From Alphaproteobacteria bacterium (GTDB lineage Bacteria; Pseudomonadota; Alphaproteobacteria; Paracaedibacterales; CAITNM01), in NCBI GenBank assembly GCA_947487955.1, contig CANKYV010000016.1, forward strand, positions 1-37,512: a stretch of DNA of 37,512 nucleotides, given 5' to 3'. The stretch's first letter is position 1. Every line of letters begins with the position of its first letter. The translations under genes and the position numbers were made by a program. The notes below the pieces were generated by a model, which was not told the DNA's origin, did no database searches, and saw nothing but the letters and a program-made list of their open reading frames with translations. This document shows positions 36,938 to 37,512 of this stretch, one piece after another.

Positions 36938-36998
36938 GCATGTTGATAGAGATGGCGAGATGAGATGTTTGGTGTAATACTTTATATAACTTGGAATG

Positions 36999-37157
36999 GA
37001 TCCTCGCGCCTCCTGCGGAGGCTCAGGCGAAATAGAGATTGCCACGTCCCTTCGGTCCTCGTAAAGACGACATTTTCGTCTTCACGAGACCACGTAGTGG
37101 TCGTGGTGATCTCGTGTAAGGAATTGCCGCGCTCCTTTGGTCCTCGCAAAGACGGTT
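36999..37157. repeat. Nested palindromic repeat element, copy B (long form)
   Basis: Four parts are visible. The stem GCCTCC-TGC-GGAGGC at 37008-37022 corresponds to copy A at 32478. A 13-bp inverted repeat with one mismatch, CTCGTAAAGACGA against TCGTCTTCACGAG, spans 37058-37088. A second stem pairs CACGAGA (37083-37089) with TCTCGTG (37110-37116), enclosing GACCAC-GTA-GTGGTC (37088-37102). Finally, two direct, diverged copies of an ATTGCCRCG..CC-TTYGGTCCTCG.AAAGACG unit occur at about 37038-37070 and 37123-37155. The last unit resembles the small dispersed repeats common in endosymbiont genomes. It appears to be built by nesting or duplication of such units. Confidence 0.8.
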
Positions 37158-37161
37158 GGGG

Positions 37162-37242
37162 CCTCTGCCTTTTCCTTACTTCTTTTTTCTTTAGCTTTCG
37201 TTTCCTTTTCTCTTCGTTTCCTTTTCTTTTTTTCTCTCGCCT
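37162..37242. other. Pyrimidine-rich tract (purine-rich on the minus strand)
   Basis: About 80 nt of almost pure C/T on the plus strand, with a 15-nt unit TTCGTTTCCTTTTCT repeated at 37197-37211 and 37213-37227. The minus strand reads as Lys/Arg/Glu-rich codons in one open frame, but that is expected from purine-rich DNA. It separates the palindromic repeat from the hairpin array. No known function; strand asymmetry of this kind can form triplexes or prime retroelement synthesis, which is speculation here. Confidence 0.6.
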
Positions 37243-37266
37243 TAGTAGTACCGTAGAAACCTCTTA

Positions 37267-37391
37267 CTCTGTTACGACCAGAGCTACGTCCATTACCACT
37301 GGACATCCGTCGGTTTGCTAGACCAGACATTCCTCCATTACTACTGGAGTTACGCTCGTTACTACCGAGCATCCGCCCATTACTACTGGGC
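37267..37391. repeat. Tandem array of six 7-nt-loop hairpins with covarying stems
   Basis: Read on the plus strand, hairpins lie at 37267-37283, 37288-37304, 37309-37328, 37333-37349, 37354-37370 and 37375-37391. Five are exactly 5 bp, 7 nt, 5 bp; the third has a longer stem with one bulge. Stems are CTCTG, GTCCA, GTCGGT, CTCCA, GCTCG and GCCCA, each followed by its complement. Loops are TTACGAC, TTACCAC, TTGCTAG and three TTACTAC (GTAGTAA on the minus strand). Linkers are always 4 nt (CTAC, ATCC, ATTC, TTAC, ATCC). Sequence-variable but self-complementary stems around a constant loop point to selection on RNA or single-strand structure. Which strand is transcribed is not evident. I know of no named family that matches. 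Confidence 0.85.
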
Positions 37392-37512
37392 ATCCGTCAC
37401 TCGCCTGTACTCAGGGATTATTCCTCTGACCAAGCTGTGCGTACCTTCTGTTGAGGGATTTATTGGCTGTCCGCTAAACAGTCCCCCACTGGGTCGCTGG
37501 GTTTCCAGATTC
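37392..37512. other. Structured non-coding flank of the hairpin array, cut by the window edge
   Basis: No credible gene. Several further small inverted repeats occur. CCTG-TACT-CAGG lies at 37404-37415. GGCTGT pairs with ACAGTC around another 7-nt loop, CCGCTAA, at 37465-37483, with one G-T pair that is stable only as plus-strand RNA. CTGG-GTTT-CCAG lies near 37497-37508. The base composition is richer in GC than that of the neighbouring genes. Together with the array this looks like part of a larger structured RNA or mobile element that continues beyond 37512. Confidence 0.5.

Follow-up and report, generated by a model that had tools for sequence, protein, structure and literature searches.

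A dispersed element in one genus of Holosporales whose hairpin array is probably the 3′ domain of a structured non-coding RNA

The hairpin array near the end of the window (the whole stretch of DNA analyzed, 37,512 nucleotides long, which is contig C16 of the 1.55-Mb, 48-contig assembly of genome G000) is probably the 3′ domain of a structured non-coding RNA of about 420 nt that is encoded on the minus strand, and we infer that the copies of the element are transcribed and act as RNA. The base pairing of the minus-strand RNA is under selection, and the element is restricted to one genus of Holosporales, in the Alphaproteobacteria. On the best reading of the evidence, the element is dispersed in the manner of a MITE and has as its interior a modular RNA under selection. 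It unites two things that are usually seen apart, dispersed elements with inverted repeats and elaborate RNAs held by compensated mutation.

The structured RNA element is apparently undescribed. Rfam covariance models gave no match up to an E value of 0.5 at five loci, and a second set gave one chance-level match elsewhere (E 0.36); in the window, Rfam matched tRNAs only, and no description of the element was found in the literature. The preliminary description of this DNA had seen in the array a candidate undescribed element, formally like a set of small structured RNAs or guide-like units. The constant loop, the compensated stems, and the lack of an Rfam family all bear out a structured RNA, but the suggestion that the units are guide-like is not supported.

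The hairpin array and the element that contains it

The array occupies positions 37267–37391 and consists of five perfect 5-7-5 hairpins and one bulged unit (hairpin 4), which has a one-base bulge and likewise a loop of 7 nt. We recovered the same six units, with the same start-to-start steps of 21, 21, 24, 21, and 21 nt, as had been reported before. The hairpins are real and lie far above chance expectation: five exact Watson–Crick 5-7-5 hairpins fall within 130 nt, as compared with a maximum of two in 20,000 dinucleotide shuffles. The array folded alone had z-scores of −3.5 (minus strand) and −3.4 (plus strand), with no shuffle folding as well. Its loops are near-invariant, whereas the stems change. 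The loop had been given as TTACNAC or, on the other strand, GTNGTAA; as the minus strand is the RNA strand (see below), it reads GUNGUAA in five of the six units and has the general form N-U-N-R-Y-A-A. The linkers between units, which had been called constant, are so in length (4 nt each) but not in sequence. The features of the element in the window are as follows, the hairpins being numbered in RNA order.

37392–37512, minus strand: part of the conserved core, including GACCCAGU, CCAAUAAAUCCC, and a CAGAGG-AAUAAU-CCCUG helix; goes on into contig C29
37375–37391, minus strand: hairpin 1, GCCCA-GUAGUAA-UGGGC (plus strand GCCCA-TTACTAC-TGGGC)
37354–37370, minus strand: hairpin 2, GCUCG-GUAGUAA-CGAGC (plus strand GCTCG-TTACTAC-CGAGC)
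37333–37349, minus strand: hairpin 3, CUCCA-GUAGUAA-UGGAG (plus strand CTCCA-TTACTAC-TGGAG)
37309–37328, minus strand: hairpin 4, bulged, GUC(U)GGU-CUAGCAA-ACCGAC (plus strand GTC GGT-TTGCTAG-ACC A GAC)
37288–37304, minus strand: hairpin 5, GUCCA-GUGGUAA-UGGAC (plus strand GTCCA-TTACCAC-TGGAC)
37267–37283, minus strand: hairpin 6, CUCUG-GUCGUAA-CAGAG (plus strand CTCTG-TTACGAC-CAGAG)
37235–37255, minus strand: 3′ arm of the terminal stem (UACGGUACUACUAAGGCGAGA), pairing with a 5′ arm found on contigs C29, C34, and C22
37168–37234, minus strand: purine-rich tract 3′ of the closing stem (plus strand pyrimidine-rich)

The array had been taken to stand free, with a partner protein perhaps encoded beyond position 37512. 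Instead, it makes up the 3′ portion of a larger, minus-strand element of about 420 nt, which is cut off by the end of the contig. A terminal stem of about 21 bp, formed by inverted repeats, closes the element, and inside it lie the hairpin array and a core with conserved loops and helices. Past the contig end the same RNA continues, with the core and the other arm of the closing stem; it is followed by a dispersed repeat block and then by host genes, which vary by copy, and there is no linked protein. Complete copies in G009 (L013/L023 and L010/L022) display, in minus-strand order, a long 5′ arm (CGCUUUAGUGGUACCGUA), a 5′ domain, the core, the array, and a complementary 3′ arm. The window is joined to C29 by an exact overlap of 77 nt, but C29 is possibly another copy, which makes the element as joined in G000 a composite; the full element of G005 was likewise built from different contigs. 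The purine-rich tract is present at most copies, including those of G005, G003, and G008, and is missing at the C6 site of G009. A scan of the 5′ block for the sigma-70 consensus found no promoter.

The 21-nt period equals seven codons, and a minus-strand frame (37082–37393) is open in the window copy, as would suit a protein-coding repeat. We consider this reading to be of negligible probability. Two G009 copies differ by a 1-nt indel within the array, and together with the indels between species this breaks every frame; minus-strand frames hold stops in G009 and G005, and the only Pfam match of the open reading frame is far under the cut-off. The frame is open because a purine tract without T cannot contain stop codons; as a conserved gene it is refuted by the indels and stops in relatives, and indeed no reading frame is conserved. 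It is no more credible that the array is guide-like, being cut in 21-nt steps and linked to a nuclease or reverse transcriptase. Its layout of repeats with differing arms is formally that of a guide array, but the arms are 5 nt long and self-complementary, the stems previously described as variable hardly differ among the copies within a genome, and the flanks of the copies hold different host genes each time, with no shared partner.

Covariation and the RNA strand

That base changes in the stems are compensated had been surmised from the window. Loss of pairing in relatives, or a conserved reading frame through the array, had been named as grounds for refutation; homologues in relatives do keep their pairing, and, as described above, no frame is conserved. 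In the array, 98.0% of cells were paired and 11 of 31 pairs were changed on both sides, a result equaled by none of 500 shuffles, although the lineages are few, the comparison resting on three species (G000, G009, and G005). Slid pairings, by way of control, gave 26–42% paired cells. In the core, 99.3% of cells were paired and four pairs were changed on both sides; 29 of 500 shuffles reached four such pairs, and none reached the number of paired cells. For the closing stem (five species), the corresponding values were 98.4% and three pairs, which is weaker, the shuffle control being convincing for cells (1 of 500) but not for the pair count (165 of 500). A compensated change is seen even among copies within G000, hairpin 6 being CUCUG/CAGAG on C16 versus CCCUG/CAGGG on C13 and C18. 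G009 has another structure in place of hairpin 2. We also observed a one-base difference between two G005 copies (L279:1–80 and L280:1–125) in the 3′ arm of the closing stem, GGCACCCC versus GGCACCAC, which is among the few apparent mismatches.

Both folding and wobble pairs identify the minus strand as the RNA strand. The complete G009 element folded with a z-score of −7.4 on the minus strand versus −3.5 on the plus strand. Wobble cells in the array stems of the three species were G·U on the minus strand in seven to nine cases (nine were counted, of which two sit where G009 aligns poorly), as against one clear A·C cell, and a G·U pair in the closing stem is kept in four species. A DNA cruciform, by comparison, would favor neither strand.

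Copies, distribution, and mobility

G000 contains at least five intergenic copies of the element. Further copies are cut off by the ends of contigs C13 (at both ends), C18, and C42, and the other half of the element stands at the ends of C29, C34, and C22. When 42 Holosporales genomes were searched with RNA models, homologues of the array turned up only in G000, G009, and G005, about 65–74% identical across species. Weak RNA-model matches led, by way of shared ends, to complete elements of 267 bp in G003 and G008 that have the same terminal stem and an unrelated interior (type B), two per genome and at matching sites:

L274:545–811, L275:1279–1545, L276:435–701, and L277:1257–1523: type-B elements of G003 and G008

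Relatives of the element are thus present in four other species of the genus, two with the array and two with the terminal stem only. The end motif was found in 2 of the 385 Alphaproteobacteria searched, both within the same genus. Plasmids and phages gave no match to the element, and viral contigs gave a single isolated match to the motif and none to the core. Genome contigs were also scanned for three TTACNAC loops spaced by 20–21 nt; none of the matches listed from outside the genus had three full 5-bp stems, and most of those that passed the stem check were simple repeats whose stems paired in part.

The copies are intergenic, in both orientations, and their neighboring genes vary by copy. 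We considered the possibility of a cis-acting leader of one gene and rejected it, the orientation to neighbors being mixed. One site, flanked by a gene that we take to be cpoB (TPR repeats were found) and by what is presumably an ABC-F-type ATPase gene, apparently carries the element in G000, G009, and G005, its two sides sitting on separate contigs. The copies within a genome are 97.5–99.3% identical on average, whereas at this site the element differs by 26–35% between species. Because likeness within a genome far exceeds likeness at the same site across species, we conclude that the copies are homogenized and evolve in concert, by gene conversion or by repeated spread. Upstream of atpH in G001, G003, G004, G008, and G009, the window copy beside atpH lacks a counterpart.

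Prokaryotic MITEs and small mobile repeats, such as QMITE of Coxiella, are typically AT-rich, and their transcripts are predicted to be stable stem-loops (PMC10969869). The element resembles them in being shorter than 500 bp (about 420 nt between the ends in G009 and 267 nt in G003 and G008), in having complementary terminal inverted repeats and no gene or conserved frame, in its intergenic dispersal, and in its predicted stable stem-loop transcript. It could accordingly be purely selfish, the inverted repeats being transposase ends and the interior merely insulating the element or a read-through transcript, with no function in trans. We regard this as possible but unlikely. It would suit the enclosure of two different interiors by conserved inverted repeats, the dispersed intergenic copies, the absence of the atpH-side copy from that site in five other species, and the stem-loops described for MITE transcripts; homogenization, too, is known in function-free elements and counts against a function as RNA. 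However, the stems of the modular interior, and not the ends alone, are maintained by compensated changes, and the element, unlike typical MITEs, is not AT-rich, the array having a G+C content of 51% versus 38% for the window and surroundings. Neither a target duplication nor a matching helper transposase was found: the edges of the copies revealed no clear duplication and no clean empty site (around atpH the genes are arranged differently), the end-motif matches listed for G000 and G009 all lie within copies of the element, and no transposase was seen between the ends. Moreover, the apparent sharing of one site by three species implies that movement is not rapid. In our favored reading, the terminal repeats may also serve, or may once have served, in spreading.

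Possible function of the array

Each 5-bp stem with its 7-nt, U-turn-type loop could be one docking site, and the array as a whole would then offer a single partner, protein or RNA, several sites at once, as a multivalent scaffold or sponge. Sponge RNAs of the CsrB/RsmZ type likewise have many equal hairpins in one RNA, with the loop GGA. The likeness would be in manner of working only, many equal hairpins potentially titrating one protein; the loop of the array is GUNGUAA, not GGA. A different comparison is with OLE, ROOL, and GOLLD, which are large, ornate orphan RNAs (PMC12286853). The element is similarly a long, multi-helix orphan RNA recognized by covariation, but, unlike those RNAs, it matches no Rfam sequence or model, is dispersed in multiple copies with inverted-repeat ends, and belongs to one Holosporales genus. 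With its several natural copies and repeated loop module, it lends itself well to a search for the partner of a new RNA.

The geometry of the array unit is that of a tRNA anticodon arm: a 5-bp stem and a 7-nt loop with U33, A37, and A38. In five of the six units G35-U36 is fixed and N34 is free, as in tRNA-Thr, the bulged unit departing from the pattern, and the array loops agree at five of seven positions with those of the host tRNA-Thr (UUUGUAA and UUGGUAA). There is a precedent in the thrS operator of Escherichia coli, in which two mimics of the Thr anticodon arm are bound by ThrRS (PMC9976931, PMC11088916). The array hairpins might similarly be tRNA-Thr anticodon-arm mimics, more than one per RNA, that act as a sponge or decoy by binding threonyl-tRNA synthetase, a tRNA-modifying enzyme, or an anticodon nuclease. 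We judge this doubtful. Unlike the operator, the array is not in a thrS leader and has up to six units; loop position 32 is G, in contrast to the host tRNAs; A34, the commonest base at its position in the array, does not occur in the tRNA-Thr genes identified in the host; the triplet of the bulged unit is AGC or GAC; and two fixed bases may match some amino acid by chance. Any such binding is putative. It is similarly a long shot that the element represents a new Holosporales RNA class, a dispersed, self-homogenizing RNA of about 420 nt with five or six mimics of the tRNA-Thr anticodon arm in a row, that would occupy a tRNA-handling enzyme as a multivalent sponge or decoy. Were the loops indeed to imitate anticodon arms, the element would be a natural multivalent tRNA decoy.

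Finally, we note other repeats in the neighborhood of the element. Upstream of the 5′ arm (L031:145–455, with matches in L179–L205) lies a conserved block, about 250 nt long, that contains a GTAGCCCA...TGGGCTA hairpin; the block recurs at some ten or more sites in G000 and in G009, the array being absent from some of them. In the window, the region between atpH and the element (36990–37160) contains several REP-like palindromic repeats (for example, GGAATTGCCGCGCTCCTTTGGTCCTCGCAAAGACG), which recur beside other copies.
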